This document shows, one piece after another, positions 1-30,032 of a DNA stretch of 55,213 nucleotides. The stretch is taken from contig CAISTY010000048.1 in assembly GCA_903888515.1 (NCBI GenBank), positions 1-55,213 on the forward strand, written 5' to 3'. The stretch's first letter is position 1, and every line of letters begins with the position of its first letter. Origin of the DNA: Akkermansiaceae bacterium (GTDB taxonomy: Bacteria > Verrucomicrobiota > Verrucomicrobiia > Verrucomicrobiales > Akkermansiaceae). The notes below the pieces were generated by a model. The model was not told where the DNA came from, did not search any database, and was given only the letters and a program-made list of their open reading frames with translations. The position numbers were made by a program, and so were the translations under genes.

Positions 1-1
1 G

Positions 2-421
2 CCAGGGGTGCTGTGCGAAACCTACCGACTGCGCTGGCGCATTGAGAAATCCTTCGACCAACAAGAACAGAAACTCGACGAGCGCAAGGCCTGGGCCACC
101 AGCGACACGGCCAAAACCATCCTGGTCATCTCCATCTGCTTCGCCAACAACCTGCTGCAACTTTTTAAAGCCACCCTCAAAACCGAGGAAGGCATCGAGG
201 ACACCAAAGTCATCAAGGCCTCTCACAAGGATCTGGACCGGCGCGAGGCCAATGCCAAAAAATCGGGCCGCCCATTTCCTAAGGCGCTCTTTCTTGACCT
301 CTATCGACCCACCGAACTTAGCCTTCAATTCATCCGCTGGCTACGCACCGCGCTCACGATTCCGACCTGCTACAGACAAGCCCTGGAACGCCTGCATCCA
401 CTCATGGAAAGTTACCTATAG
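2..421 (+). CDS. IS4-superfamily transposase, C-terminal part (cut by window edge)
   Basis: The reading frame is open at the left edge and ends at 421, giving about 139 residues. Near its start it has the spaced residues Y-x2-R-x3-E within YRLRWRIEKSF, the C-terminal signature of DDE transposases of the IS4 superfamily, followed by a basic helical tail. The N-terminal DDE residues lie outside the window, so intactness cannot be judged. It lies just upstream of the 80-bp repeat at 452 and the arsenic/mercury island, which suggests the island border is a site of insertion. The exact IS family is uncertain. Confidence 0.72.
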   Translation, partial: PGVLCETYRLRWRIEKSFDQQEQKLDERKAWATSDTAKTILVISICFANNLLQLFKATLKTEEGIEDTKVIKASHKDLDRREANAKKSGRPFPKALFLDLYRPTELSLQFIRWLRTALTIPTCYRQALERLHPLMESYL

Positions 422-451
422 ACTAACAATGGACAGGGTTGTCTAAAATCA

Positions 452-531
452 GGGAGCTTGCCAAACTTGTTCACATGGGCCATCCTGACACCTGTAGTCG
501 CCTAGCGCGGACCCAAGGCACCCACTCACAA
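452..531 (+). repeat. Dispersed ~80-bp direct repeat, copy 1
   Basis: The first 33 bases (gggagcttgccaaactt onward) match the segment at 16356 with a single mismatch, and the remainder matches with small gaps. In both places the repeat ends directly at an ATG start codon, here that of the FmdB-like gene at 532. The two copies are in the same orientation about 16 kb apart. The repeat can be translated through, but the two peptide versions are not well conserved, so I read it as non-coding. Confidence 0.7.
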
Positions 532-765
532 ATGACCACCTACGTCTATCAAACCATCCCGCAAGTGCCCGGCGAGGAACCGAGCTGTTTCGAGATCAAA
601 CAAAGCATGCATGATCAGCCGTTGACCACCCACCCGGAAACCGGCGAACCCATCCGCCGCGTCATTCTCGGCGGCTTCGGCATCTTGAACGGCGGCAAGG
701 CAACGCAACAGCCTGTGCCATCGGGCCGCGGCTGTTGCGGTGGCTCCGGCTGCGGTTGCCACTGA
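532..765 (+). CDS. FmdB-like small protein, zinc ribbon lost, Cys-rich tail
   Basis: This 77-residue protein follows the FmdB/zinc-ribbon pattern (MTTYVYQ start, QSM.D.PLT, then E.IRRVI.GG), but the CxxC pairs expected in that family are gone. The usual C-P-x-C-G is replaced by HPETG and only one Cys remains in the N-terminal half. The C-terminus instead carries GCCGGSGCGCH, a dense Cys/His cluster that could bind a soft metal. The start at 532 was chosen because the upstream part of the frame lies in the dispersed repeat. It is the first gene of the arsenic/mercury island, 110 bp before arsR. The function is unknown; a metal-binding accessory role is inferred. Confidence 0.7.
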   Translation: MTTYVYQTIPQVPGEEPSCFEIKQSMHDQPLTTHPETGEPIRRVILGGFGILNGGKATQQPVPSGRGCCGGSGCGCH

Positions 766-844
766 ATGAGCTGCGGACCTTGGTGAGGGGACGCAGCATC
801 GCCGCGCGTGTGGTCGCAAATCTTTTTTTTGCAAATTTTCCTTG

Positions 845-866
845 CGTATTTCGCGAAAACACGAAT
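845..866. promoter_or_regulatory. Putative ArsR operator upstream of arsR (copy 1)
   Basis: A perfect 10-bp palindrome, tttcgcgaaa (849-858), lies in an AT-rich stretch 18 bp before the arsR start, preceded by ttgcgtattt. The region before the second arsR (6464-6503) holds a related ttttcccgcgaaaa and ttgcgcgtattt. A palindrome just upstream of an ArsR gene fits autoregulation. The site is inferred. Confidence 0.45.
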
Positions 867-875
867 AGTAACGTC

Positions 876-1235
876 ATGCAGGGCCGCACGAAAGCGATTC
901 CACGATGGGCGGTGAAGCCGACGAAGACGGCACTCAAGCGCCAGGCCGAGGTGTTTAAAGCGCTAGGTCACCCTGGGCGCATGGCGATTGTCCATGCTTT
1001 GGGCAATGGCGAGGTGTGCGCCTGCGAGTTGGCCACGGTGGCCGGGTGTGCGCCTTCGACCACCTCGCGCCACCTGACGGTGCTGCGGCATGCCGGCTTG
1101 ATCGCCGACGAGCGGCGCGGCCAGCAGATTTTCTATCGGCTGACTTTTCCCTGTGTGCTCACCTTCGCCGAATGCATCAATCGGGTTGATGCCGGGGAAA
1201 AGGTGCAAACATTGCAGGTCGCCTGTTGTGCCTAA
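876..1235 (+). CDS. arsR: ArsR-family metalloregulator (first copy)
   Basis: The 119-residue winged-helix protein shows the ArsR pattern: A.VFKALGHPGRMAIV, then the metal-site motif EVCACELA (Cys48 and Cys50), and the recognition region STTSRHLTVLRHAGLI. Further cysteines occur near residue 58 and as a CC pair at the C-terminus. ArsR proteins repress their own operon and release DNA when arsenite or another thiophilic metal binds. The ATG at 876 was chosen because a palindromic operator candidate lies just upstream; longer forms would read through it. It heads the block that leads to hgcAB. The inducing metal cannot be read from the sequence. Confidence 0.9.
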   Translation: MQGRTKAIPRWAVKPTKTALKRQAEVFKALGHPGRMAIVHALGNGEVCACELATVAGCAPSTTSRHLTVLRHAGLIADERRGQQIFYRLTFPCVLTFAECINRVDAGEKVQTLQVACCA

Positions 1236-1242
1236 CGGAAAA

Positions 1243-1294
1243 ATCCAAGATCCCAAATCCCAAATCTGAAATCTGAAATCTGAAATCTGAAATC
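1243..1294 (+). repeat. Heptad-phased tandem repeat array
   Basis: Seven full 7-bp units in strict phase (variants of atccaag, atcccaa and four copies of atctgaa) plus a partial unit fill the gap between arsR and the thioredoxin gene and stop exactly at its ATG. No Shine-Dalgarno sequence is left for the downstream gene. Confidence 0.85.
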
Positions 1295-1672
1295 ATGAAC
1301 ATACTCATCATCGGCCCCGGTTGCCACAAATGCAAGACACTCGCGCAACTCACCGAGCAAGCGGTTGCGGAACTCGGCATCACCGCCGAAATCACCAAGG
1401 TCACCGACCTCAAGCAAATCATGGCGTTGGGCGTGATGATGACGCCTGCGCTGGTCGTGGACGGCACCGTCAAGGTATCCGGGCGGGTGCCCGGTATCGT
1501 CGAAATCAAGGCCATGGTCTGTGGTGCGACGCAAACCCTCTTGGAATCCGGTCTGAGCCCCGCTGATGTGATCAACCTCATTCCCGTGAAACCCTTGGCA
1601 GCTATGGAACCACAAGTCACCGAGACTTACCGGACCTGCCTGCCCGCTATCTATCAGAAGATTAAACCGTAA
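1295..1672 (+). CDS. Small thioredoxin-fold redox protein (redox-active disulfide protein 2 type)
   Basis: This protein of 125 residues starts MNILIIGPGCHKC, with the active-site C-x2-C in the first helix of a thioredoxin fold, and has the cis-Pro region MMTPALVVDG and an SGRVPG loop. This matches the archaeal/bacterial small thioredoxin-like proteins often found beside arsenic genes and ArsP permeases. It probably passes electrons between a thioredoxin reductase or CcdA partner and a metal-handling protein in the cytoplasm. The C-terminal ~45 residues with an extra Cys are unusual for the family, which is normally about 80 residues. It has no clear ribosome binding site because the heptad array abuts the ATG. 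Confidence 0.85.
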   Translation: MNILIIGPGCHKCKTLAQLTEQAVAELGITAEITKVTDLKQIMALGVMMTPALVVDGTVKVSGRVPGIVEIKAMVCGATQTLLESGLSPADVINLIPVKPLAAMEPQVTETYRTCLPAIYQKIKP

Positions 1673-1712
1673 TCACGGATCCAGCCCAATCAAAAGACAC
1701 AATAATCCAATC

Positions 1713-2996
1713 ATGAAAACACCTGCTAGAATTGTGATTGTTCTGCTCGTTGTGGGAGCGGCCGCTGCGACCATCATCCTCAAAGGCAACAAATCACGCG
1801 ACGCCGCCAACCCAACAACCGCCGTGGTGACCAGCGACGCTGCGGCGGCTACCGATGCGACGGCCAAGCTTCCCAAGCTTCTGGACCTCGGTGCAACCAA
1901 ATGCATTCCCTGTAAAATGATGGCTCCGATTCTGGAAGAGCTGAAGAAGGAATATGCCGGCAAAATGAAAGTCGAGTTTATCGACGTGTGGCAGAATGAG
2001 GACGCCGGGAAGAAATATGGTGTCGAGATGATACCCACTCAGATTTTCTATGACGCCAACGGCAAGGAATTGTTCCGCCACACCGGTTTTTTCGGCAAGG
2101 AGGACATTCTCGCCAAGTGGAAGGAACTGGGCGTGGATATCAGCGGTGGCAAGCCTGCTGCGGGGATCGTGCGCGAGACCCCGGTGGCCGCAGACACCCG
2201 CCCTCGCGACAGCGTTTGCTTCATGTGCGACGGAACCATTGATCCCAAGACCAAGGCGCTGGTGAAAGGCCAGGCCGAGCAGCATGCCTTTTGTGCACCC
2301 CACTGCTACTTCATCTACTTTTCCAGTTTGGTGAACCCGGATGCGAAGGCTGAGGAGGCCAAGGTCAGCGTGACGGATTGGGAGAACGGCAACCTGGTTC
2401 CATCCGCAACAGCCAGCTATCTCTACGGCATGGGCACCAAGGGCCGCGCCACCATCAAGGCGTTCGCGACGGGCGAGGCAGCTACCAAGGAGCAACAGTC
2501 GGCCCCCGGCAACCTGGTCACCTGGGACGTGCTCAAGGCCAAGGAACTGACCACGCGCTGCGCGTTTTGCGACCGTGCCGTTTATCCCGAGGACGCCTGC
2601 GGGGTCGAGTTCGGCAGCACGCACGGCCACGGCTGCTGCACCCATTGTTCGCTGGGCGTTGCCGCGCGACTCAAGCAGGACATTGAAATCGAAGCCAAGG
2701 ACGGACTAACAGGAGAGATGATCCGGGTGAAAACCCTGGATGGACAGATTGCCTCGTTAGAACCGGGGACGGCCATTGCCTGGTTTGGTCAGAAGAAAGG
2801 ACCGGACGGCAAATGGGTTTCCGCCGGGTGCTTCAAGCAGGGATTTTTCGTCAATGAAACCAATCTGCAAAAGTGGCTGGACGCGCGTCCGGCGATGACC
2901 GGCCGGCAAATCACCATCGCGCAGGCACTATCCGACAAGATGAAGCTCAGCCCTGAGCAGATCGCGAAAGCCTGCAAACTCGGCGAGTGCAAGTGA
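1713..2996 (+). CDS. Membrane-anchored thioredoxin fused to NosL-like Cys-rich domain
   Basis: The 427-residue protein has an N-terminal hydrophobic anchor (about residues 5-22) and then a thioredoxin domain with the active site CIPCK and cis-Pro MIPTQIFYD, ending near residue 145. The rest is Cys-rich: CFMCDG, a CAPHC motif, a segment VTDWENGNLV resembling NosL/copper-chaperone proteins, then CAFCD and HGHGCCTHC, and a Cys near the very C-terminus. The anchor predicts an extracytoplasmic position. It lies between a small thioredoxin and an ArsP-like permease in the hgc block. A role in reducing or delivering a thiophilic metal is inferred. Organomercurial lyase was considered, but its catalytic arrangement was not recognised. 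Confidence 0.75.
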   Translation: MKTPARIVIVLLVVGAAAATIILKGNKSRDAANPTTAVVTSDAAAATDATAKLPKLLDLGATKCIPCKMMAPILEELKKEYAGKMKVEFIDVWQNEDAGKKYGVEMIPTQIFYDANGKELFRHTGFFGKEDILAKWKELGVDISGGKPAAGIVRETPVAADTRPRDSVCFMCDGTIDPKTKALVKGQAEQHAFCAPHCYFIYFSSLVNPDAKAEEAKVSVTDWENGNLVPSATASYLYGMGTKGRATIKAFATGEAATKEQQSAPGNLVTWDVLKAKELTTRCAFCDRAVYPEDACGVEFGSTHGHGCCTHCSLGVAARLKQDIEIEAKDGLTGEMIRVKTLDGQIASLEPGTAIAWFGQKKGPDGKWVSAGCFKQGFFVNETNLQKWLDARPAMTGRQITIAQALSDKMKLSPEQIAKACKLGECK

Positions 2997-3050
2997 GGTG
3001 CCCAGCCGTCAATCGGCAGTGATTGCCATGCCACAACTGATTATATAGCC

Positions 3051-4352
3051 ATGAACGACGTCAAGAAATTCGCATGTCTGTTAGGAGTGTTTCTGCTGGC
3101 CTATTTTGTGCCGTTTGATCATCCGGAGGCAGCCAACGCAATTCTGGAGGGATTCCGGCTGCTCCAGTGGTATGCGGTGAATCACACTCTGGCATGCGTG
3201 GTGCCGGCCATGTTCATCGCGGGTGCGATTTCCACGTTTCTGTCGCAGGTGTCGGTGATGCGATATCTGGGGCCGCGGTCGAATCGGACGCTGGCCTATG
3301 GGGTGGCGTCGGTGTCAGGCATGATCCTGGCGGTATGCTCGTGCAGCGTGCTGCCGATGTTTGCGGGGATTTACACGATGGGTGCGGGTTTGGGGCCGGC
3401 CAGCGCGTTCCTGTATTCGGGACCGGCGATCAATGTGCTGGCGGTTTTCCTCTCCGCGCGGGTGTTGGGGCTCGACCTGGGTATCGCGCGGGCTGTGGGG
3501 GCGATCACGTTCGCGGTCATCATCGGGCTGTTGATGCACTTGGTTTTCCGCCGGAGCGAGGGTCTGCGCCAGGAAAAACTGCTGCAGATGCCTGAGGAGA
3601 CAGCCAGTCCGCGGCCGCTGTGGAAGACGGCTTTGTTTTTTGCTGCGATGGTGATGTTCCTGATTTTCAGTGATTGGTATAACACCAACGATGTGACGAT
3701 CACGCTGAATGACGGGACGAGGATTGAGGCCAACGTGCGCTTTTCGCGCCCGGAGTCTGTGGAAATCCAAGCCTACGACACGGCCGGGCGTTTGGGAACG
3801 GAATTGCGCCGCTTGAGCCGGACTGATATTCTAACAATTACGCCAAAGCCCGGATGGGTGATGACGGTGCACGGCATGAAGTGGGTGCTGGCGGGATTCA
3901 TGGGGTTGGTGGTTGCGCTGATGACGTGGCGGTGGTTCAACCCGCAAGAGCGCAAAGACTGGATGAAAGCCACTTGGGATTTCGGCCTGATGATTGTGCC
4001 ACTGCTGTTTGGCGGGGTGTTTGTTACGGGTGTGATTGGCGCATTGATCCCGGAGAGCCAGGTGGCCACATGGGTTGGCGGCAACAGCCTCGCCTCCAAT
4101 TTCGTCGCCGCGTTCGTCGGGATGATCTGGTATTTCGCGACGTTGACCGAGATTCCAATCGTGGAAATGCTCACACGCTTGGGCATGGGCAAAGGCCCCG
4201 CGCTCGCGTTGTTGCTGGCAGGCCCCGCGCTGTCGTTGCCCAGCATTCTGGTGATCAACAAGATCATCGGTGCCCGGAAGACCTTTGTTTTCTGCTTTCT
4301 TGTGGTGGTGATGTCCACGATTGTCGGCATGGCATTCGGCGCGTTGGCGTGA
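3051..4352 (+). CDS. arsP: ArsP-type permease (PF03773-like), with extracytoplasmic insertion
   Basis: The 433-residue polytopic membrane protein has the family hallmark VCSCSVLPMFAGIYTMGAG followed by LYSGPAINVLAV, and a matching second half (EIPIVEMLTRLGMGKGPALA, then LLAGPALSLPSI). Members of this family include ArsP, which exports methylated and aromatic organoarsenicals. Between the two halves, at about residues 208-270, lies a non-membrane insertion rich in beta-type sequence (VTITLNDGTRIEANV). Its place directly upstream of the CcdA and hgcAB genes makes organometal export a plausible job. The substrate itself is not readable. Symbol use is by family. Confidence 0.85.
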   Translation: MNDVKKFACLLGVFLLAYFVPFDHPEAANAILEGFRLLQWYAVNHTLACVVPAMFIAGAISTFLSQVSVMRYLGPRSNRTLAYGVASVSGMILAVCSCSVLPMFAGIYTMGAGLGPASAFLYSGPAINVLAVFLSARVLGLDLGIARAVGAITFAVIIGLLMHLVFRRSEGLRQEKLLQMPEETASPRPLWKTALFFAAMVMFLIFSDWYNTNDVTITLNDGTRIEANVRFSRPESVEIQAYDTAGRLGTELRRLSRTDILTITPKPGWVMTVHGMKWVLAGFMGLVVALMTWRWFNPQERKDWMKATWDFGLMIVPLLFGGVFVTGVIGALIPESQVATWVGGNSLASNFVAAFVGMIWYFATLTEIPIVEMLTRLGMGKGPALALLLAGPALSLPSILVINKIIGARKTFVFCFLVVVMSTIVGMAFGALA

Positions 4353-4381
4353 TTCTAACGGAACTTGTCGATATCATCATC

Positions 4382-5080
4382 ATGGAAACCATCTTCACCC
4401 ACCTCAGTCACGCGGTCGAAGGCGCGCCACTCATTGCGCTGGGTGCCGCCGTGGTCTGGGGCATTCTGAGCATCGTGCTCAGCCCGTGCCATTTGGCGAG
4501 CATTCCGCTCATCGTTGGTTTCATCAGCGAGCAGGGTCCGGTCACCACGCGCCGAGCGTTCTGGACCTCGACCTTGTTCGCCGTGGGCATACTCGTCACC
4601 ATCGCGGCGATCGGCGCGATCACAGCGGGCGCGGGACGCATGCTGGGCGACGTCGGGCGTTACGGGAATTATTTTGTGGCGCTCATTTTCTTCGTGGTGG
4701 GTCTTCATTTGTTAGGTGTGATCCCGCTGCCATTCTCCGGGCCGGGGCAAGTGGGCATGAAGCGCAAGGGGATGCTCGCCGCATTGATTCTCGGCTTGGT
4801 GTTTGGCGTGGCCCTGGGGCCCTGCACCTTCGCCTACATGGCCCCGATGCTGGGCGTCACCTTCAAGCTGGCGCAGACCGCCCCGTGGTATGGCGCGTCA
4901 TTGTTGTTGGCCTACGGCGTCGGCCACTGTGCGGTGATCGTGCTGGCCGGCACCTCCACCGAGGTGGTGCAGAAATTCCTCAACTGGAACGAGCAATCCA
5001 AGGCGGTCACCCGGATCAAGAGTGCGTGTGGCGCGCTTGTTGTGTTAGGCGGCATTTGGATGATCTACACGGCTCCCTGA
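4382..5080 (+). CDS. CcdA/DsbD-type transmembrane electron carrier (first copy)
   Basis: The 232-residue membrane protein has about six hydrophobic segments and the two CcdA-type intramembrane Cys-Pro motifs, SPCHLASIPL in the first helix and GPCTFAYMAPML in the fourth. CcdA proteins move electrons from cytoplasmic thioredoxin across the membrane to extracytoplasmic redox proteins; the anchored thioredoxin-NosL fusion two genes upstream is a natural acceptor. The ATG at 4382 follows the permease stop by about 30 bp, and the hgcA start follows 12 bp after the stop, so co-transcription is very likely. Confidence 0.88.
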   Translation: METIFTHLSHAVEGAPLIALGAAVVWGILSIVLSPCHLASIPLIVGFISEQGPVTTRRAFWTSTLFAVGILVTIAAIGAITAGAGRMLGDVGRYGNYFVALIFFVVGLHLLGVIPLPFSGPGQVGMKRKGMLAALILGLVFGVALGPCTFAYMAPMLGVTFKLAQTAPWYGASLLLAYGVGHCAVIVLAGTSTEVVQKFLNWNEQSKAVTRIKSACGALVVLGGIWMIYTAP

Positions 5081-5092
5081 TAACTGTCAGTT

Positions 5093-6124
5093 ATGAACTC
5101 TGACAAATGTTGCTGTAAGCAAAGCGCGGATTGCGGTGGTTCGTCGCAGCACGTTCGCACACTCACGCCCGACTGGGGAGTGTCTGATTTTCTGGGCATG
5201 ATTCGCGTGCGTCTTGGTTGCGGGCGCATGTCCTACGGCATGGAACCGGGGTTGTACGCCATGGGCAGCCCTACCCCGGAGTCGCCGGTGCTGGCGACGG
5301 CCAATTACAAACTGACGGTTGACGTGCTGCGGCGTGAATTGGGCGATCGCGATCTGTGGCTGCTGGTTCTCGACACGGCCAACGTCAATGTCTGGTGCGC
5401 TGCGGGCAAGGGGCTATTTGGCACGGCGGAGTTGACGAGGCAGATCGAAGCGACACGGCTCGCGCAACATGTGACGCGCCGCCGGGTCATCCTGCCGCAA
5501 CTCGGCGCGCCGGGTGTGGCCGCGCACAAGGTGAAGAGTCAGACGGGGTTCCATGTCGTCTATGGCCCGGTGCGAGCCAAGGACATTCCTGAATTCCTCG
5601 ACAACGGCCAAGACGCGACACCAGAGATGCGCCGCGTGACGTTTCCGCTAGGCGAGCGGTTGGCTCTAACGCCAATTGAATTGCGTCAACAATTCCGCGC
5701 TGCGCTGATTCTGGTGCTGGCCCTTGGCCTGACACCCGTCATCTGGCGCGGTTGGGATCAGGGCTTGTGGAACCACGGTTTGCGCGGAGCCATGGCTGGA
5801 GTTGCATGCTGGCTTGCAGGCTGCCTGCTCGGCCCCGCGCTGCTTCCATGGCTTCCTGGACGCGCTTTCTGGGTGAAAGGCGCATTTCTCGGCGCGGCCC
5901 TGGCGGCGGGCCTTGCCTTGACTGGTGTTGTCCAGGGACTTCTTCCCGGGTTGGGCGCCATGCTTTGGTTGGGCGCGGGTGTTTCCTTCCTGCTGATGAA
6001 CTTCACCGGATGCTCGACATTCACTTCGCTATCGGGTGTGAAGCGAGAGATGAAGGCCATCCCCGCACAAATTGCCGCCGGCACCATGGGACTTGTTCTG
6101 TGGTCAACCGGCTGGTGGCTGTGA
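5093..6124 (+). CDS. hgcA: Mercury methylation corrinoid protein HgcA
   Basis: The 343-residue protein contains NVWCAAGKGLFGT, the strictly conserved cap-helix motif of HgcA, with the cobalt-ligating Cys at residue 102 (codon 5396-5398). The corrinoid-binding domain spans about residues 25-200 (VLATANYKLT, PQLGAPGVAAHKVK, GFHVVYGPVRAKDIPEFL). Five hydrophobic segments follow (about 205-343), including LLMNFTGCSTFTSL. Length and order match known HgcA (about 340 residues). HgcA transfers a methyl group from its corrinoid to Hg(II), giving methylmercury, and needs HgcB to be re-reduced; hgcB is the next gene, 32 bp on. The N-terminus carries an unusual KCCCKQSADC cluster. The context is an arsenic-resistance island. 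No alternative family has this motif. Confidence 0.96.
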   Translation: MNSDKCCCKQSADCGGSSQHVRTLTPDWGVSDFLGMIRVRLGCGRMSYGMEPGLYAMGSPTPESPVLATANYKLTVDVLRRELGDRDLWLLVLDTANVNVWCAAGKGLFGTAELTRQIEATRLAQHVTRRRVILPQLGAPGVAAHKVKSQTGFHVVYGPVRAKDIPEFLDNGQDATPEMRRVTFPLGERLALTPIELRQQFRAALILVLALGLTPVIWRGWDQGLWNHGLRGAMAGVACWLAGCLLGPALLPWLPGRAFWVKGAFLGAALAAGLALTGVVQGLLPGLGAMLWLGAGVSFLLMNFTGCSTFTSLSGVKREMKAIPAQIAAGTMGLVLWSTGWWL

Positions 6125-6156
6125 CCAACACCGTATTTCCTAACTGAACACCATAT

Positions 6157-6438
6157 ATGCGCTATCTCAAGAATGTCGTCACCCTGCAACTGAATGAATC
6201 GGTATGCATTGGCTGCGGCCGCTGCGTCGAGGTATGCCCCCATGCCGTGTTTCATATTCACCATCGCCGAGCCGTCATCGTTGATCGCGACGCCTGCATG
6301 GAATGCGGTGCGTGCGCCCGCAATTGCCCGGTGGATGCCGTCTCTGTCATTGCCGGTGTCGGCTGTGTCACAGGATTGCTCAACCGGGCGCTTGGGCGCA
6401 AAGGCGATTGTTGTTGCACTGAAGACTCGTGCTGCTAA
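6157..6438 (+). CDS. hgcB: HgcB, [4Fe-4S] ferredoxin partner of HgcA
   Basis: The 93-residue protein has two [4Fe-4S] motifs: Cys17/20/23/27 in CIGCGRCVEVCP and Cys47/50/53/57 in CMECGACARNCP. The C-M-E-C-G-A-C form is diagnostic of HgcB. It also has the additional conserved Cys of the family (Cys70 in VGCVTG) and the vicinal C-terminal cysteines (CC at 92-93), preceded here by a further CCC at 85-87. HgcB reduces the HgcA cobalt centre, and its extra cysteines are thought to bind and hand over Hg(II). It directly follows hgcA and precedes the second arsR. Confidence 0.95.
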   Translation: MRYLKNVVTLQLNESVCIGCGRCVEVCPHAVFHIHHRRAVIVDRDACMECGACARNCPVDAVSVIAGVGCVTGLLNRALGRKGDCCCTEDSCC

Positions 6439-6463
6439 TCACCACCTGAGCACCAAAACTGAA

Positions 6464-6503
6464 TTTTCCCGCGAAAAATCAATATTTGCACTTGCGCGTA
6501 TTT
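6464..6503. promoter_or_regulatory. Putative promoter/operator before second arsR
   Basis: The 91-bp gap between hgcB and the second arsR is AT-rich and holds the imperfect palindrome ttttcccgcgaaaa (6464-6477) and cttgcgcgtattt (6491-6503). Both resemble sequence before the first arsR (ttgcgtattt and tttcgcgaaa). This suggests a shared ArsR-type operator and an internal promoter for arsC onward. Confidence 0.4.
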
Positions 6504-6529
6504 AATCGGCGGCTTAAATAAAGGCTGTC

Positions 6530-6898
6530 ATGGCCGTCAAGCAAACCGCATCAGAGCAGGTCGTCGCGATCTACAAGTGCCTGTGCGACGTCAATCGTCT
6601 GCGGATTCTCAATCTCCTGCGCATTGAGTCGCAGTGTGTTTGCCACATTGAGAAGGTGCTCGGCATCGGCCCGGTGAGAACCTCCCAGCAACTCGCGTAT
6701 CTGCGTCGCCATGGAATGGTGGAGGTAGAGGTCCGCGGCACATGGCGGGTGTACTCGCTGCCCGCCAAACCGGGACCGGAATTGGCGGCCAACCTTGCCT
6801 GCCTGCAAGACTGCATTTTCGAAGGCAAAAACTTCCGGGAGGATCTCGCCCGCCTGAAGAAAATCCGCCAGGGCAAATGCGGCCCCAAGCCGATCTAA
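6530..6898 (+). CDS. arsR: ArsR-family metalloregulator (second copy)
   Basis: The 122-residue winged-helix protein has IYKCLCDVNRLRILNLL, the metal motif QCVCHIEKVL (Cys36 and Cys38) and the recognition stretch VRTSQQLAYLRRHGMV. It differs from the first ArsR in this island, which has a CAC metal motif and a longer N-terminal tail, so the two are paralogues rather than a recent duplication. It starts 91 bp after hgcB and precedes arsC by 16 bp, fitting an ars repressor that may also control hgcAB read-through. Confidence 0.92.
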   Translation: MAVKQTASEQVVAIYKCLCDVNRLRILNLLRIESQCVCHIEKVLGIGPVRTSQQLAYLRRHGMVEVEVRGTWRVYSLPAKPGPELAANLACLQDCIFEGKNFREDLARLKKIRQGKCGPKPI

Positions 6899-6914
6899 CA
6901 AACCACTATTATTC

Positions 6915-7382
6915 ATGCCCTCTCCGCCTTTACCCATCGTCCTGATCCTTTGCACTGGCAATTCGTGCCGCAGTCACCTGGCGGAAGGCATCCTGCGCCA
7001 AGCCGCCGCTGACAGGCTGGACGTGCGCAGTGCCGGATCGAATCCCGCCGGTTATGTTCATCCGCTGGCCATCCGGGTCATGGCCGAGATCGGCATCGAT
7101 ATTTCCGCACACCGGAGCAAGCACATGGACGAATTTCTCCAACAGAACGTGGAGACCGTGATCACAGTCTGCGGCAATGCCGACCAAGCCTGCCCGATGT
7201 TTTCCGGCCAACTCAACCGCCATCATTGGGGATTCGACGATCCGGCCCATGCACAAGGCAGTGTGGATGAACAACTGGCCGTATTTCGCCGGGTGCGCGA
7301 CCAAATCAAAATGGTTTTCGAGGCCTACGCCGATGGACGGCGTGACGAGGCGAATAACAACACAACCAACAACCTATCATGA
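6915..7382 (+). CDS. arsC: Arsenate reductase, thioredoxin-coupled LMW-PTP type
   Basis: The 155-residue protein begins with the phosphatase-like loop LCTGNSCRSHLAEG (Cys13-x5-Arg19) and has the two extra redox cysteines Cys86 and Cys93 in VCGNADQACP, spaced as in the thioredoxin-dependent arsenate reductases. It reduces As(V) to As(III) in the cytoplasm using a Cys relay regenerated by thioredoxin. It follows arsR, and its stop overlaps the start of the next gene (ATGA at 7379), so the two are translationally coupled. Confidence 0.95.
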   Translation: MPSPPLPIVLILCTGNSCRSHLAEGILRQAAADRLDVRSAGSNPAGYVHPLAIRVMAEIGIDISAHRSKHMDEFLQQNVETVITVCGNADQACPMFSGQLNRHHWGFDDPAHAQGSVDEQLAVFRRVRDQIKMVFEAYADGRRDEANNNTTNNLS

Positions 7383-8131
7383 ACACAACCAACGAAGAGC
7401 CGAAAGCAAGTGACAACATGGAATTACTCAAACAACAAGCCGAGGGATGTGGGGTCGGCTGCGCCTGCCACGGCTCCGGGGCTTCGGGCAAGGCACGCTG
7501 GGTGATTTGCGCCATCGTGCTGGCCGTCGCCGGAATACTGGTGGTGCGCGCCATGACCAAGACCGATGCCGCCTCGGCCCAACCGCAGTCAACTGCATTT
7601 GCGACCCCAGTCGCGTCACCTGCGGTGGTTCCCGTTGCAGCATCCGAAACAACACCTGAGGCAGCTCCAGAGGCGACACCCGTGGTGCCTGCCCAAGGCG
7701 TTCCATCGGTCAGCCCTACGGTGGTGGCTGAGCCTGCCGCAGCGAGTGCGGAAACGATGATCGGAGCATTTGCCGAACTCAATACAGTCGCAGCCAGGAG
7801 TGACGCCGTTTTCGTCTATCTGCTTGGAAAAGAGGAAACTTCCGGAAGCGCCGCCGCTGCGAAGGCGATGCAGGCCGCCGTGCGAACGATTGCGGCCAAG
7901 GGAGGAGTCAAATGCGCCATCTTCACTTTGAAAGCGGGTTCGCCCGATTACGCGAACCTTGCGCCACAGGTGTCGCGACCTGGAGTGCTGGCCATGGTCA
8001 AGGGCAAGGGCATGAGCGCGGTTATGGGTGAGATCACTGAAACAAAACTGGTGCAAAGTTATGTGGCAGCGTCGAGTGCGGGCGGCTGTGGCAGCGGTGG
8101 ATGCGCCCCAGGTACCCCCGGCTGCAATTGA
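7379..8131 (+). CDS. Membrane-anchored thioredoxin-fold-like protein with Cys-rich ends
   Basis: The 250-residue protein has a Cys cluster near the start (GCGVGCACHG), one membrane segment (about residues 41-61), a long Ala/Pro/Val/Thr linker (about 65-122) and a compact domain (about 125-235) whose pattern (DAVFVYLLG, then AIFTLKAGSPDY and RPGVLAMVKG) resembles a thioredoxin fold without a CxxC site. It ends in GGCGSGGCAPGTPGC. It overlaps the end of arsC and precedes a CcdA-like gene, so a redox or metal-handling role is inferred. I do not recognise a named family. Confidence 0.7.
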   Translation: MNTTNEEPKASDNMELLKQQAEGCGVGCACHGSGASGKARWVICAIVLAVAGILVVRAMTKTDAASAQPQSTAFATPVASPAVVPVAASETTPEAAPEATPVVPAQGVPSVSPTVVAEPAAASAETMIGAFAELNTVAARSDAVFVYLLGKEETSGSAAAAKAMQAAVRTIAAKGGVKCAIFTLKAGSPDYANLAPQVSRPGVLAMVKGKGMSAVMGEITETKLVQSYVAASSAGGCGSGGCAPGTPGCN

Positions 8132-8147
8132 ACTGAAAGTTCACAAG

Positions 8148-8849
8148 ATGATTGAATCCATCAAGACCGCGTTGCAGGCGGGCAGTTCGGGCGCGATTGC
8201 CCTGCCCTTGGCATTCTTGTTAGGTCTGGCCAGTGCCGTGGGCAGCGCCTGTTGCACCCTGCCCGCGATGGGCATGCTGGTGGCCTACTCGGGTACGCGG
8301 GAGAATGTGTGCCGCCGGACCGCCCTGGTGTCGGCGCTTGCGTTCATGATTGGCACCACCTTGGCGCTGATTGTGCTAGGTTACGTCGCGGGTTTCGTGG
8401 GCCAGTCGGCACAGGCGCTGCTAGGTAACTATTGGAAACTGTTTGCCGGGGTGATCGCAGTGTTGTTCGGGCTCGCGGCTCTTGGCTTGTTGCCGGTGAA
8501 GCTTCCACAATTGCGGCGCAATACAGCCACGTCGGCCGCAGGACAGGGGATTCTCGGGACGCTCATCGTGGGATTGTTGCTGGGTGGCGGCGTGGCGGCC
8601 TGCTCGCTGCCCTGCAATCCGGGAATCTTCATCGTGTTAGGTGCGGCAGTGTTGCAGGGTCATTCGGTGTGGGGGATGCTGCTGATGGCCGCGTTCGCGC
8701 TGGGTTTCAGCCTGCCGCTCGCGGCCATTCTGCTCGGCGTTTCGTTTGGCAAGGCATCGATCAAGGCGCAGAAAGTCGAGGCGGCCATTCGGATCGTTGC
8801 CGGGGTGCTGCTGGTCGGCGTCGGTCTCTATCTGCTGGCGACATTCTAA
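8148..8849 (+). CDS. CcdA/DsbD-type transmembrane electron carrier (second copy)
   Basis: The 233-residue protein has about six membrane helices with paired cysteine motifs GSACCTLPAMGM and CSLPCNPGIF, the positions used by CcdA/DsbD-beta proteins. It probably carries electrons to the anchored thioredoxin-like protein upstream. The ATG at 8148 was preferred to a longer form that would overlap the previous gene by 100 bp. With the first CcdA-like gene (4382) it makes two separate relays in one island; the two proteins are not close copies. Confidence 0.82.
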   Translation: MIESIKTALQAGSSGAIALPLAFLLGLASAVGSACCTLPAMGMLVAYSGTRENVCRRTALVSALAFMIGTTLALIVLGYVAGFVGQSAQALLGNYWKLFAGVIAVLFGLAALGLLPVKLPQLRRNTATSAAGQGILGTLIVGLLLGGGVAACSLPCNPGIFIVLGAAVLQGHSVWGMLLMAAFALGFSLPLAAILLGVSFGKASIKAQKVEAAIRIVAGVLLVGVGLYLLATF

Positions 8850-8864
8850 CTAATCTCTCAAGCC

Positions 8865-9197
8865 ATGAAAACCATCCAAATCTTTGATCCCCCGATGTGC
8901 TGTTCCTCCGGCGTGTGTGGGGCCGAGGTGGATAACAATCTCGTCAATTTCACCGTGTCATTGCAGTGGCTCAAAATGAACGGCGTGCAGGTGGAACGTT
9001 TCAATCCGCTCCATCAGTATGATGTGTTTGCCGCCAACGAGGTCGTGACCAAAGCCGTGAATGAAAAAGGCATCGAGTGCCTGCCACTGATCCTGCTCGA
9101 CGGCGAGGTCGTCAGTTCCGGCATCTATCCGAGTCGGCTCGAATTGAGCGGCATGACAGGTCTTGGCAATCAGGAAGCCGCTGCCGAACCATCATGA
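8865..9197 (+). CDS. arsD: Arsenite metallochaperone ArsD
   Basis: This protein of 110 residues starts MKTIQIFDPPMCCSSGVCG, placing Cys12, Cys13 and Cys18 exactly as in characterised ArsD, and has a thioredoxin-like core ending in GIECLPLILLDGEVV and SGIYPSRLEL. ArsD binds As(III) and hands it to ArsA. Its stop overlaps the arsA start (ATGA at 9194), a typical arsD-arsA coupling. Confidence 0.96.
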   Translation: MKTIQIFDPPMCCSSGVCGAEVDNNLVNFTVSLQWLKMNGVQVERFNPLHQYDVFAANEVVTKAVNEKGIECLPLILLDGEVVSSGIYPSRLELSGMTGLGNQEAAAEPS

Positions 9198-11002
9198 ACC
9201 TGCCGATCTATCAGACCGATCCGGCCACCGCCACCCGCTATCTGTTTTTCACCGGTAAAGGTGGTGTTGGTAAAACCTCGCTGTCCTGTGCCACGGCCTT
9301 GAAACTCGCCGAGGCAGGCAAGCGCGTGTTGCTGGTCAGCACCGACCCGGCTTCCAATCTGGATGAAGTGCTGGAAACACACTTGACCAATGCACCCACA
9401 GCCATTGTCGGAGTTCCTGGCCTTGACGCGATGAACATCGACCCGGTCGAGGCGGCCGCCGCTTATCGCGAACGCCTGATCGGCCCGATGCGCGGCCTGC
9501 TGCCGGAGGCTGCCTTGCGCAACATGGTGGAACAGCTATCCGGATCCTGTACGGTGGAAATCGCGGCCTTCGATGAGTTCACGGCATTGATCGGCGACCC
9601 GGAGGCGGCGAAGAACTACGACCATGTCGTTTTTGATACCGCGCCCACCGGACACACGCTGCGTCTCATGAGTCTGGCCAAAGCGTGGGACCAGTTCCTG
9701 GACACCAGCACCAGTGGCAGTTCCTGCCTGGGACCCCTCGCGGGACTGGATAAACAACGCGCCATTTATGAGGCCACCGTTCATACGCTGGCCGATGCCA
9801 CCGCAACGACGCTGGTGCTGGTGAGCCGCCCCCAATCCGCCGCGCTCCATGAAGCGGAACGCACGTCGGGCGAGTTGCGGGAGTTGGGTGTCGGCAATCA
9901 GCGCCTTGTCATCAACGGGGTCTTTGAAACCAATTGCCCGGACGACGTCACTGCCCTCGCGTTGCAACGCCGTGGCATCGCGGCCATTGAGGCTGCCAGC
10001 GCTTTTATCAACAGCCTGCCGACTTCTATCGTGCCGCTGCGGCCGGTGAATATCCTCGGCGTCCAAGGCCTGCGATTGCTGCTAGCAAGCGGATCTTCCG
10101 CCATCGCTCCCCCTCCGCTTAACGGTTGGACCCCGCCTGCAATGGAAAGCTTGGAAGCGCTGGTCTCCGACATCGAACGCCAGGGCAACGGCGTCATCAT
10201 GACGATGGGCAAAGGCGGTGTGGGCAAGACCACGGTGGCCGCTGCCATCGCTGTGATGCTGGCAAAGCGCGGTCATTCCGTCCATCTCAGCACCACCGAT
10301 CCCGCCGCGCATGTGGCGCAGACTTTGGCGGGCCAAGTGGCCGGGCTCACGCTTAGCTCAATCGATCCCGCCAAGGAAACCGCCGCCTATCAGGAGGAGG
10401 TGATGGCGGCGCAAGGAGGCGCGATGGATGCGGCGGGCCGGTCGTTGTTAGAGGAGGACCTGCGCTCTCCGTGCACCGAGGAGATCGCCGTGTTCCGTGC
10501 CTTTGCCCGCGAAGTGGGCCATGGCACAAACCGCTTTGTGGTGCTCGACACCGCGCCCACTGGCCACACGTTGCTGCTGCTGGATGCCAGCGAGGCCTAT
10601 CAACGCGAACTGGAGCGGCAGGCCCGCAGCACCCAGCCGGAGGAAGTGCTGAAACTGCTGGAACGACTGCGCGATCCGGCATTCACCCGCATTTTGCTAG
10701 TCACCCTGCCCGAGGCCACGCCGGTCCACGAGGCCGCCGATTTGCAGGAGGACCTTCGCCGGGCGCGCATCGAACCCTTTGCGTGGGTCGTCAATCAAAG
10801 CCTTCTTCACAGCGGTTCCAGTGATCCCCTGCTGCAAGGCCGCGAAGAATCCGAGCGCCGCTACCTGAGCGAGGTGGTGGCAACCCACTCCACCCGCACC
10901 GCCTGGCTGCCATGGCAGGCGGAGGAACCCACCGGGCCCGACGCGCTGGCGCGGTTGGCAGTATCCAGCCTCAAACCTGCAATACCAACGAAGAAACCAT
11001 GA
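9194..11002 (+). CDS. arsA: Arsenite efflux pump ATPase ArsA (two-domain)
   Basis: The 602-residue protein has two homologous ATPase halves. The P-loops are GKGGVGKTS (residue 21 onward) and GKGGVGKTTV (about 339 onward), and each half has the signal DTAPTGHTL. The arsenite-binding cysteines are present in GSCTVEIAAFDEF, in SSCLGPLAG and in SPCTEEIAVF. ArsA receives As(III) from ArsD and energises the exporter. The ATG at 9194 lies in the arsD stop overlap; a longer frame upstream is arsD in another frame. Its stop overlaps the acr3 start. Partnership with an ACR3-type rather than ArsB-type pump is seen in several phyla. Confidence 0.96.
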   Translation: MNLPIYQTDPATATRYLFFTGKGGVGKTSLSCATALKLAEAGKRVLLVSTDPASNLDEVLETHLTNAPTAIVGVPGLDAMNIDPVEAAAAYRERLIGPMRGLLPEAALRNMVEQLSGSCTVEIAAFDEFTALIGDPEAAKNYDHVVFDTAPTGHTLRLMSLAKAWDQFLDTSTSGSSCLGPLAGLDKQRAIYEATVHTLADATATTLVLVSRPQSAALHEAERTSGELRELGVGNQRLVINGVFETNCPDDVTALALQRRGIAAIEAASAFINSLPTSIVPLRPVNILGVQGLRLLLASGSSAIAPPPLNGWTPPAMESLEALVSDIERQGNGVIMTMGKGGVGKTTVAAAIAVMLAKRGHSVHLSTTDPAAHVAQTLAGQVAGLTLSSIDPAKETAAYQEEVMAAQGGAMDAAGRSLLEEDLRSPCTEEIAVFRAFAREVGHGTNRFVVLDTAPTGHTLLLLDASEAYQRELERQARSTQPEEVLKLLERLRDPAFTRILLVTLPEATPVHEAADLQEDLRRARIEPFAWVVNQSLLHSGSSDPLLQGREESERRYLSEVVATHSTRTAWLPWQAEEPTGPDALARLAVSSLKPAIPTKKP

Positions 11003-12099
11003 ACACGAAACCTGACCTGCTCTCCGCCGCCCCCAAGCGCCTGAACTTTTTCGAACGCTATCTATCACTCTGGGTTCTCGTTTGCATGATCGTCGGCGTG
11101 GCGCTGGGCAAACTGCTGCCGGATGTCATCGCCACCCTGAGCAAGCTGGAATTCGGCCAGGGCTCGCAAGTCAACATCCCCATCGCCGTGCTCATCTGGC
11201 TGATGATTTTCCCGATGATGCTAAAAATCGATTTCGGCTCGCTGGGCGGCATCGCGAAGAAACCCAAGGGGCTGTTCATCACGCTGTTCGTGAACTGGCT
11301 GGTGAAACCCTTCAGCATGGCCTTCCTCGCGTGGGTCTTCCTGCAACATGTATTTGCCGGATGGGTAGAGCCGGAGATGGCCAAAAACTACACCGCCGGT
11401 CTCATCATCCTGGCTGCCGCGCCCTGCACCGCCATGGTGTTCGTGTGGAGTTATCTAACAGACGGCGACCCGGCCTACACGCTGGTGCAGGTGGCGATCA
11501 ACGACCTCATCATGCTGGTGGCGTTCGCGCCCATTGTGATGTTCCTATGCGGGGTGGCTGACGTGATCGTGCCGTCCAAGGTGCTCATCACTTCGGTCGT
11601 CGTGTTCATTGTCATTCCGCTGGCGGCGGGATATCTCACCCGCAAGGTGCTGTTGAAATCCCATGGCTCCGAGTGGTTCGAGAAATCCTTCCTGCCCCGG
11701 TTCCAACCGGTGACGGTCGTGGCGCTGCTGGCCACCCTGGTGCTCATTTTCGCTTTTCAAGCGGAAAATCTAACAACCAAGTGGGTTGCGGTCATTTTGT
11801 TAGCCGTTCCCATCCTGGTGCAGGTCTATTTCAACTCCAGCCTGACCTACCTGTTGATGCGGTGGTTCAAGGTGCCGCACAATGTCGCATCACCCGGTGC
11901 CCTGATCGGTGCCAGCAATTTTTTCGAACTGGCGGTGGCCGTGGCCATCACGCTCTTCGGGCCCAGCTCGGGAGCGGCGCTGGCCTGCGTCGTGGGCGTG
12001 CTGGTAGAAGTGCCCGTCATGCTTTCCGTCTGCCGCGTCTGCAACGCCTCGCGCGATTGGTATCAGCGGAGCCTACGCGGACCTGAATTCGACGCTTGA
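10999..12099 (+). CDS. acr3: ACR3-type arsenite efflux transporter
   Basis: The 366-residue membrane protein of about ten helices carries ACR3 hallmarks: IWLMIFPMMLKIDFGSL, NWLVKPFSMAFLAW, LAAAPCTAMVFVWSYLTDGD with the essential Cys, and ASPGALIGASNFFELAVAVA near the end. It exports As(III) across the inner membrane, here probably energised by ArsA. It starts inside the arsA stop codon and is the last gene of the ars/hgc block; the following 400 bp hold only gene remnants. Confidence 0.96.
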   Translation: MNTKPDLLSAAPKRLNFFERYLSLWVLVCMIVGVALGKLLPDVIATLSKLEFGQGSQVNIPIAVLIWLMIFPMMLKIDFGSLGGIAKKPKGLFITLFVNWLVKPFSMAFLAWVFLQHVFAGWVEPEMAKNYTAGLIILAAAPCTAMVFVWSYLTDGDPAYTLVQVAINDLIMLVAFAPIVMFLCGVADVIVPSKVLITSVVVFIVIPLAAGYLTRKVLLKSHGSEWFEKSFLPRFQPVTVVALLATLVLIFAFQAENLTTKWVAVILLAVPILVQVYFNSSLTYLLMRWFKVPHNVASPGALIGASNFFELAVAVAITLFGPSSGAALACVVGVLVEVPVMLSVCRVCNASRDWYQRSLRGPEFDA

Positions 12100-12257
12100 T
12101 TTCATCCCTGTCGCGGATTAGGCTCCCCTCATGTTGGCAATGAAACAAATTTCCCAAATGTCATCCAGCGAGCGCGTGGAATCGACTTCTACAACGTGAT
12201 CGAAGACGGCGTCGGCCTTTATTTCACGGAGGGCCAAGTAAGAATCACCCTAGCAAA

Positions 12258-12404
12258 ACGAATCCAATCCTTGAAGAACTTTGGCGCACCAAAGACGATT
12301 TGGCTCGCGAAGCCGGTGGCGATGTGCGCCGCCTCTGCGAAAACACCCGCCGCTGGGCCACAGCAAATCCGCACCCAGGCCCGGTCGTGAAGGACGCCGC
12401 CTAA
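12258..12404 (+). pseudogene. Remnant of a small conserved ORF (ACG where ATG expected)
   Basis: The frame reads TNPILEELWRTKDDLAREAG and then GGDVRRLCENTRRWA, ending at a TAA at 12402. This resembles small proteins common in planctomycetes and Verrucomicrobia that start M-N-P-I-x-E-E-L, but the first codon is ACG and no other start fits. The 130 bp before it carry a second start-less frame (VIEDGVGLYFTEGQ). No intact gene is visible in 12100-12496, so this is read as decayed sequence behind the ars operon. Confidence 0.4.
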
Positions 12405-12496
12405 CTCCGCAACTGGCTCGCGCGACAGGAGGAGGCGGACTTGTTAGTCGTCCGTGAGGACCCGCCGCCCTATGACAACGCATAACCCGGCCTAGC

Positions 12497-12910
12497 ATGC
12501 CTCCCCGACAAAATCAAAAAATCGAATTCCAGGAACCAGCCCCGTCCATCCTGCGGCAATGCGACGAGTGGCCGGCAGCGTGGATGAGTGTGGACGAGGA
12601 CGTTCTATACGGCCAGCGACTTGTCGCAGCGATGAAGCCGTTCATCGAGTCTCTGATAGCAACTAACGTTTCTAAGCGCGGCATCAAAAAACACTTGGAC
12701 AATCTCTGGCTGCTTGGCGGGGAGATCATCCGCGACGTGAGTTTGCACGAGGACTACGAAAAATCCGCTCCCGCCGCCAGATTATGGGATGCCATCGGCC
12801 CTCATGAAGGTCCCTATTGCCGGCACCTTCACACGGCCAGCGAGCAGCAGTCATACGATGCGACCTGCGGCAAGCTGTACCGGTTCCTCAAGCAAAACAG
12901 AAGCGGCTGA
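12497..12910 (+). CDS. Conserved hypothetical protein
   Basis: The 137-residue soluble, helical protein contains NLWLLGGEIIRDVSLHEDY and, at the end, SYDATCGKLYRFLKQ. I recall similar motifs from uncharacterised proteins scattered over diverse bacteria, often near mobile DNA, but no function is known to me. There is no signal peptide or membrane segment. It stands alone between decayed sequence and a convergent gene. Confidence 0.6.
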   Translation: MPPRQNQKIEFQEPAPSILRQCDEWPAAWMSVDEDVLYGQRLVAAMKPFIESLIATNVSKRGIKKHLDNLWLLGGEIIRDVSLHEDYEKSAPAARLWDAIGPHEGPYCRHLHTASEQQSYDATCGKLYRFLKQNRSG

Positions 12911-13061
12911 TCCAGGATCTTCTCGTTTTCTCTGTTGCCTTCTGTTCATCAGGAATGACACCATTGCTTCGAATTGTAGCGGCGCTTGATGCCAGAAGCG
13001 GAGGGGCGATGCGCTTCTCTTCCGATAGCTTCGTGTTCTTCGTGCCCTTCGTGGTGCCCAT

Positions 13062-29812: not shown

Positions 29813-29849
29813 GTGGATCTCATCAATGTCTGTAAGTCGCAGACGGTTG

Positions 29850-30032
29850 AAAAATCCCCCCGGGCTGGCTTTCTGGCTTACCGTTCCGCTCACGCAGTCC
29901 GGAATCACAGTGGCGATACCGCGTTGGAATTACACCAACTTCCCCATCAATTTCCTGCCCATGCGAAGGGCTTCCCAAAGAGAGTCGGCCTTGCACCGAC
30001 GGCGCGGAGTTAGGGAGCAACCCGTCCGCTTG
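29850..30032 (-). ncRNA. Cobalamin riboswitch
   Basis: On the minus strand the segment contains ggaagttggtgtaattccaa, then the conserved B12 box gccactg (29908-29914) followed by tgattccggactg, and further on aagccagaaagccagccc, which correspond to the core of cobalamin riboswitches. A small hairpin, gtctg/cagac (29828-29844), lies between it and the receptor start. It should lower receptor expression when adenosyl- or other cobalamin is abundant. Confidence 0.9.

Follow-up and report, generated by a model that had tools for sequence, protein, structure and literature searches.

The stretch of DNA analyzed here (the window, 55,213 nucleotides, contig CAISTY010000048.1 of an Akkermansiaceae bacterium) carries at 5093..6438, on the + strand, the mercury-methylation gene pair hgcA and hgcB, and both genes are real and intact. 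Judged from the gene layout, hgcAB is the last pair of a redox unit headed by an ArsR gene (ArsR1), and it is followed by a second unit, headed by ArsR2, that runs from an arsC-like gene to acr3. We propose that the pair methylates inorganic mercury as one arm of an island that defends the cell against thiophilic metals, an explanation that we consider probable while leaving considerable room for doubt. The gene families, the residues, the gene order and the recurrence of the neighborhood form the directly observed part of this explanation.

The identity of the two proteins follows from profile searches. HgcA (5093..6124, +, 343 residues), a corrinoid methyl carrier with a C-terminal membrane domain, scores 394.1 bits against the NCBIfam model NF040863 (cut-off 275). 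HgcB (6157..6438, +, 93 residues), a ferredoxin with two [4Fe-4S] clusters and a C-terminal pair of cysteines, scores 118.2 bits against NF040864 (cut-off 99). Both identities had been proposed in an earlier reading made from the letters alone (the sequence-only reading), and the scores above the curated cut-offs bear them out. That reading had named a CdhD-like corrinoid protein as the competing identity for hgcA; this candidate is rejected, since the model of the CdhD-type gamma subunit gives 63.7 bits (cut-off 306) compared with 394.1 for the HgcA model. The model for HgcAB-like fusions reaches 195.9 bits (cut-off 285). The cap-helix motif NVWCAAGK occupies HgcA residues 99–106, with Cys102 as the corrinoid-ligand cysteine. 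Written as N(V/I)WCAAGK, the motif is identical in all of 20 aligned HgcA proteins and is matched in 92 of 96 HgcA loci, the exceptions being L065, L097, L102 and L122. Five overlapping hydropathy peaks at residues 200–301, which a simple scan resolves inexactly into four or five segments, are in line with the membrane domain. HgcB has both ferredoxin motifs (cysteines 17/20/23/27 and 47/50/53/57), the additional Cys70 and the vicinal C-terminal cysteines 92/93. The hgcA frame is free of internal stops, and a genome-wide search found a single HgcA in the window genome (G000). Nonsynonymous and synonymous divergences (dN and dS) from the same-genus genome G489 are 0.051 and 0.341 for hgcA and 0.058 and 0.312 for hgcB; on these estimates, the pair is under purifying selection. 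HgcA begins with a Cys-rich tail, MNSDKCCCKQSADCGG (window 5093–5140), which precedes the part of the protein that the HgcA model covers, is retained in relatives such as P0003 and P0008, and has a shorter form in P0015 and P0018. A palindrome spans the hgcA start in the window.

The flanks are close and lie on one strand, as had been described: 12 bases separate DsbD1 from hgcA, 32 separate hgcA from hgcB, and 91 separate hgcB from ArsR2, with all island genes of window positions 1–12099 on the + strand. From ArsR1 on, the gaps within the first unit are 12–59 bases, and those within the second are −4 to 16. The placement of hgcAB in a full ars operon stands only in part. The ars genes do adjoin the pair, but there are two ArsR-headed units, hgcAB closes the first of them, and G489 and a further same-genus genome, G737, arrange the units differently. 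A single operon from ArsR1 to Acr3 is disfavored by the 91-base gap, by a conserved stretch before ArsR2 and by the different unit order in G489. This stretch (6478..6529, +), a candidate promoter/operator of the second unit, looks conserved relative to G489 in a comparison by eye, without a statistic. A sigma-70 promoter scan of 12.6 kb gave one match, where shuffled sequence averaged 3.7, and is uninformative.

The first unit opens with ArsR1 (876..1235, +), for which PF01022 and NF033788 are above cut-off on the longer frame beginning at 735; the start at 876 was picked by the 119-residue open reading frame of G489. It continues with an ArsE-type thioredoxin (TrxE) carrying a ProC-like tail (1295..1672, +; TIGR00412, 97.5 bits; DNA alignment with G489), a membrane-anchored thioredoxin–NosL–MerB-like fusion (1713..2996, +, 427 residues), an ArsP_1-type permease (3051..4352, +, 433 residues) and DsbD1, a DsbD/CcdA-like membrane protein (4382..5080, +, 232 residues; PF02683, 44.8 bits, cut-off 27.1). 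The redox and permease genes placed upstream by the sequence-only reading are thereby confirmed and specified further, the MerB-like part having been overlooked. The second unit consists of ArsR2 (6530..6898, +; NF033788, 61.6 bits, cut-off 55; PF01022), a thioredoxin-type ArsC-like protein (6915..7382, +; PF01451), a Cys-rich protein with one hydrophobic segment and negative family searches that we label CGCG (7379..8131, +), a second DsbD/CcdA-like membrane protein, DsbD2 (8148..8849, +; PF02683, 52.2 bits), arsD (8865..9197, +; NF033727, 115.4 bits, cut-off 90), arsA (9194..11002, +; TIGR04291, 773 bits, cut-off 650) and acr3 (10999..12099, +; TIGR00832, 387 bits, cut-off 282.8), the sole Acr3 found in the genome. 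CGCG neighbors DsbD2 again in related loci. The starts of DsbD2, arsA and acr3 were set at ATG 8148, 9194 and 10999 within longer frames. ArsA, ArsD and Acr3 all score above cut-off, which qualifies the unit as an ars operon. Of the downstream series named earlier, arsR, arsD, arsA and acr3 hold, but arsC is filed as ArsC-like because its 141.8 bits against TIGR02691 fall below the cut-off of 174.3.

The island is headed by CysX, a short Cys-rich protein (532..765, +; Zn_ribbon_8, 18 bits, below the cut-off of 34.4; 79% in G737), and a transposase fragment (8–418, +) with weak, below-cut-off IS701/IS4 matches precedes it. An AAATCTG-type short tandem repeat occupies 1249–1294, just before the ArsE-type thioredoxin gene, as seen in a terminator scan and in the G489 alignment. 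G489 has a perfect inverted repeat before ArsR1, part of which the window keeps, by eye. A repeat search over 1–13500 returned nothing resembling island borders.

In other bacteria, HgcB passes Hg(II) to HgcA, whose corrinoid gives up a methyl group, and ArsR-family repressors let go of DNA upon As(III) binding. We propose that ArsR1 responds to As(III) or a comparable thiophile by releasing the first unit, and that hgcAB would then be co-transcribed with the thioredoxin, the ArsP-type permease and the DsbD-like protein. Surface and envelope thiols may be held reduced by thioredoxin and DsbD, enabling Hg(II) to be handed on; HgcB would give it to HgcA, and the cysteine-ligated corrinoid would transfer the methyl group. 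The methylated metal would exit the cell, perhaps via the permease, with the ArsR2 unit handling the reduction and export of arsenic at the same time. From the gene arrangement, it is likely that hgcAB is switched on together with the defense against arsenic and similar metals. Corrinoid supply is plausible because a cobalamin riboswitch (29846–29993, −) sits at the 5′ end of a TonB-dependent receptor gene (27947–29908, −) on the same contig, a combination that likely serves corrinoid uptake.

The neighborhood of hgcA recurs in other genomes. We used tblastn to place window and G489 proteins on 23 hgcA loci of the phylum, which come from 21 genomes (19 above-cut-off phylum genomes plus G489 and G737), with ArsC, ArsD, ArsA or Acr3 counted as ars genes. 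Ars genes stand alongside hgcA in 14 of the 23 loci and a same-strand thioredoxin or DsbD-type gene in 15, with the gene order shuffled; in G305 and G273 there is only a weak opposite-strand thioredoxin match. Such ars or redox neighbors occur in several verrucomicrobial families and in some loci of Planctomycetota, Bacteroidota, Spirochaetota and Bacillota. Among 20 hgcA genomes, a count that excludes G737, Acr3 scores above cut-off in 15 genomes (16 copies), 13 of the copies being no farther than 10 kb from hgcA. Eleven of the 16, all beside hgcA, come from 10 of 11 genomes that were picked for ars-linked hgcA; the remaining nine genomes have five copies, two of them beside hgcA (G165 and G250). 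The second DGC protein of the G489 first unit is present in 4 of 387 phylum genomes (E <= 1e-20), three of which have hgcA (G065, G118 and G347). The fourth genome, G145, breaks off at a contig end about 0.5 kb past an ArsR, at the position that hgcA occupies in G165, which shares its genus code.

The distribution of ars linkage on the HgcA tree points in the same direction. The tree was built by a quick method from 128 rows, 25 of them proteins without genomic context. The window HgcA, whose placement in such a tree had been suggested earlier, is nested among HgcA rows in a 28-row clade (SH-like approximate likelihood ratio test, SH-aLRT, 100) inside a 40-row branch (91); all rows are HgcA, and the contrast of HgcA with CdhD and the HgcAB-like fusion rests on the profile scores. 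P0016 and P0027 (<270 residues) and P0028 (looks chimeric) were kept out of both HgcA trees, P0031–P0120 were unused, and P0008, the G737 protein, was left out of the second tree, where this protein already stands as L153. The first half of P0028 resembles the window HgcA clade and its second half the deltaproteobacterial-type HgcA, by eye, so that it is either a recombinant or an assembly chimera. Within the 40-row branch, 12 of the 15 context-known rows are ars-linked, the rest being the short contigs L156 and L097 and the redox unit of G737. Over the whole tree, 27 of 103 context-known rows are ars-linked (two row pairs are identical), and this linkage takes 13 changes compared with a shuffled mean of 24.0, none of 500 shuffles being as low; the well supported branches require at least nine changes. 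Because gene order varies between loci, this suggests that hgcA and ars genes stay close through selection or repeated assembly and not through simple descent. An HgcA branch that keeps ars or thiol-redox genes near despite changes in order leads to a testable claim, namely that hgcAB is regulated with thiophilic-metal defense.

Several observations weigh against this proposal. The gap before ArsR2 and the conservation there argue against one operon. Nine of the 23 verrucomicrobial loci have no ars genes on the stretch examined (G737, G305, G361, G114, G273, G270, G285 and two in G180), those of G285 and G180 sitting on contigs that measure 8.4, 3.2 and 4.8 kb. For GTDB r220, the 80 best of 584 confirmed loci comprise 13 with ars genes within 10 kb and 67 without; where the sequence reaches beyond 5 kb on each side (33 of these 80 loci), 26 are ars-free and 7 ars-linked. 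Three of the 16 Acr3 copies are on contigs other than that of hgcA (G285, G270 and G114). G378, of the same family (L166, contig C21), has ArsR-ArsP-TrxE-Trx-DsbD1, its DsbD1 matching that of the window at 71%, with no hgcAB on the stretch examined, and this module is therefore independent of hgcAB. The fusion lacks the Asp99 of MerB. Lastly, PMC10349881 reports ars genes on only 4 of 35 hgcAB contigs, with arsR on none of these.

One rival explanation is that hgcAB is a passenger of a mobile metal-resistance island, in which case the neighborhood would be uninformative on function; we judge this unlikely, although it deserves serious attention. The island lies at a contig end, adjoining the weakly matched transposase fragment, and HgcA is found in only 3 of 73 genus genomes (E <= 1e-30), namely G000, G489 (91%) and G737 (83%). 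At the same threshold, it is present in 2 of 48 cleaner genus genomes and 2 of 386 sampled genomes of the order, and it scores above the model cut-off in 19 of 387 sampled phylum genomes. The history of the island also favors mobility. Nine island genes compared between G000 and G489 have dS of 0.31–0.50 and dN of 0.03–0.12 (Nei-Gojobori; DsbD1 left out), whereas the two core genes compared, IleS and the gene at 20984–22885, have dS of 1.00 and 1.31. The island dS lies so far below that of these core genes that transfer of the whole island from one species to another is probable; a less favored explanation of the low dS is that codon use in the island is under stronger constraint. Against G737, where island genes alone were compared, five of them have dS of 0.43–0.88. 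A second, broken copy of the island is present on contig C267 of G489 (L133), with pieces of Acr3, DGC, OsmC, Trx, DsbD1 and HgcA. The passenger explanation is countered by the recurrence of ars and redox neighbors, in shuffled order, across several verrucomicrobial families and in some loci of other phyla, and by the purifying selection on hgcAB. The island was unmatched in the plasmid sequences searched, and the viral contigs gave nine pattern hits, none of which was confirmed.

The three islands differ in composition. In G489 the two units are in the opposite order to that of the window: ArsR2...Acr3 comes first, followed by ArsR1-TrxE-Lpd-GcvH-DGC-DGC-OsmC-ProC-Trx-DsbD1-hgcA-hgcB, and ArsC was sought in this island without a match. 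G737 has CysX-ArsR1-TrxE-Lpd-GcvH-DGC-DGC-OsmC-ProC-Trx-NosL-MerB-DsbD1-hgcA-hgcB; arsC, arsD, arsA and acr3 were not found on its 35.9 kb contig, which ends about 3.4 kb past hgcB. ArsP is present only in the window island. In the DNA alignment with G489 (L132, 9882–14472), the window gene at 1295–1672 joins about residues 1–75 of TrxE in frame to the last ~50 ProC-like residues. It appears to be a deletion scar, in which Lpd to most of ProC (~4 kb in G489) was lost. Two above-cut-off HgcA genes occur in G347, at C1:458153–459112 (L134) and C2:139730–140716 (L136), each with its own Acr3 and Trx-NosL-MerB-like gene, and likewise two in G180 (C198 and C4); both are draft genomes. According to a 2021 study (PMC8261052), multiple HgcAB copies had not been demonstrated in any genome.

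A further alternative concerns the substrate. The native substrate of this HgcAB lineage could be arsenic or another thiophile instead of mercury, with an ArsP/ArsG-like permease exporting the product and the MerB-like fusion handling it; we find this improbable. The permease belongs to the PF03773 family (249.7 bits), and transport of trivalent organoarsenicals, the activity expected of an ArsP, is for this protein a family-based prediction. The best NCBIfam model of DsbD1 is ArsG, at 49.5 bits and thus under the cut-off of 200, and the fusion itself suits such a role. However, HgcA and HgcB retain the motif residues known from mercury methylators, and ArsP occurs in just 2 of the 23 verrucomicrobial loci and NosL-MerB in 4 (G000, G737 and both G347 loci). 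The alternative is helped by the arsenic-responsive hgcAB of strain ND132, as reported in PMC10349881. A related and similarly doubtful possibility is that hgcAB belongs integrally to a cycle of arsenic and organometals and is not a mercury gene that merely lies close by. Arsenite would then act as its native signal and might also be its native methyl acceptor, with export of the methylated product through the ArsP-type permease and protection of the cell against that product by the Trx-NosL-MerB-like protein. If true, it would answer the purpose of HgcAB.

The fusion protein matches PF00085 (thioredoxin), PF03243 (MerB-like, 4e-18) and, weakly and below cut-off, PF05573 (NosL-like), and it has a single N-terminal hydrophobic segment. 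Compared with MerB (MerB2, 5c17; MerB, 3f0o), it is joined to a thioredoxin and a NosL-like part. In the alignment to MerB2, the two catalytic cysteines, Cys96 and Cys159, are retained, and the Asp99 position, which is Ser in MerB2, is Cys312, a residue unchanged across 28 sequences. A true MerB is rejected, given the missing Asp99 and a MerB model score of 22.7 bits, below the cut-off of 200; we therefore call the protein MerB-like. Its structure matched the MerB fold. The Foldseek rows are mainly thioredoxins, with MerB2 at rank 15 (TM 0.47 on the target, rmsd 11.3 over 174 columns), and the predicted MerB fold rests more on the domain match, the MerB2 alignment and a separate fold comparison than on this ranking. 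The fusion is best read as a putative protein for thiol-based metal binding or organometal handling and should not be taken for a proven lyase. No MerA was found in the window genome, where the best match gave 55 bits compared with a cut-off of 454.45. A MerA-model match in the G489 island (363 bits) is a dihydrolipoyl dehydrogenase (493.7 bits, cut-off 408.8). The 2021 survey, which takes strictly conserved Cys96, Asp99 and Cys159 as the mark of MerB, reports that HgcAB is absent from genomes with MerB alone (PMC8261052). The window fusion does not contradict that statement, because it lacks one of these residues.

That the join of island and chromosome is an artefact of assembly or binning is very improbable: the island does sit at one end of a 55 kb contig in a 309-contig draft (93.14% complete, 3.07% contamination), but homologous islands in G489 and G737 (both also drafts; G737 12.6 Mb with 6% contamination), the genus matches of IleS and the 20984–22885 protein elsewhere on the contig, and an even GC content (0.56–0.63) speak against it. 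Each of the two proteins is present in 40 of 41 genus genomes searched, at up to 82% (IleS, besides G000) and 83%. The named relatives of IleS include an Akkermansiaceae bacterium (81%), a Luteolibacter sp. (80%) and Verrucomicrobia/Verrucomicrobiota bacteria, plus one labeled as a cyanobacterium (81%) that is probably misnamed. The verrucomicrobial host suggested by the sequence-only reading is thus upheld, and on these matches the host is probably a member of the Akkermansiaceae.

The genetic link between mercury methylation and thiophilic-metal detoxification, which that reading had put forward, is present here but is not new, having already been published (PMC7438021, PMC10349881, PMC10504345). 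In these and one further source, 14 of 31 confirmed methylators are reported to have arsR at most three open reading frames before hgcA (PMC10349881), arsenic genes stand beside hgcAB in Prolixibacteraceae (PMC10504345), and nearly all of 38 hgcA metagenome-assembled genomes have ars genes, with no recognizable Hg-methylation genes described around hgcAB (PMC12953829). The additions made here are an architecture of two units, a MerB-like partner, recurrence of the neighborhood across families and a probable transfer of the island between species. The pairing of hgcAB with a MerB-fold protein, and the predicted extension of methylation potential to probable Akkermansiaceae, give the locus its significance. 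Neither a Trx-NosL-MerB-like gene beside hgcAB nor hgcAB in Akkermansiaceae was found in the literature searched, which is weak evidence of absence, as most subscription papers fall outside it; a search for papers that bring these bacteria together with mercury methylation listed only one, a review on methylmercury and gut microbiota.

Among known systems, the SAO/Tso selenoprotein system bears a weak likeness to the island and is rejected. The permease resembles SaoE (110.5 bits, cut-off 325), the fusion SaoL (19.1 bits, cut-off 140) and the DsbD-like proteins TsoB, all far below the cut-offs of the NCBIfam models. Pseudodesulfovibrio mercurii ND132 also has an ArsR-family gene upstream of hgcA, with ArsR-like control of hgcAB and a response to arsenic, as PMC10349881 reports, citing Gionfriddo 2023. 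The window differs from ND132, as described there, in the four genes that separate ArsR1 from hgcA (thioredoxin, fusion, permease, DsbD-like) and in the additional ArsR that comes after hgcB. In the loci of McDaniel et al. 2020 (PMC7438021), hgcAB is flanked by acr3, arsC, arsM and arsR in diverse putative methylators. As in those loci, hgcAB of the window stands directly beside arsenic genes. Unlike them, as they are described in that text, the window has two ArsR-headed units, arsD-arsA, a Trx-NosL-MerB-like fusion, an ArsP-type permease and two DsbD-like proteins, and it comes from a probable Akkermansiaceae genome.

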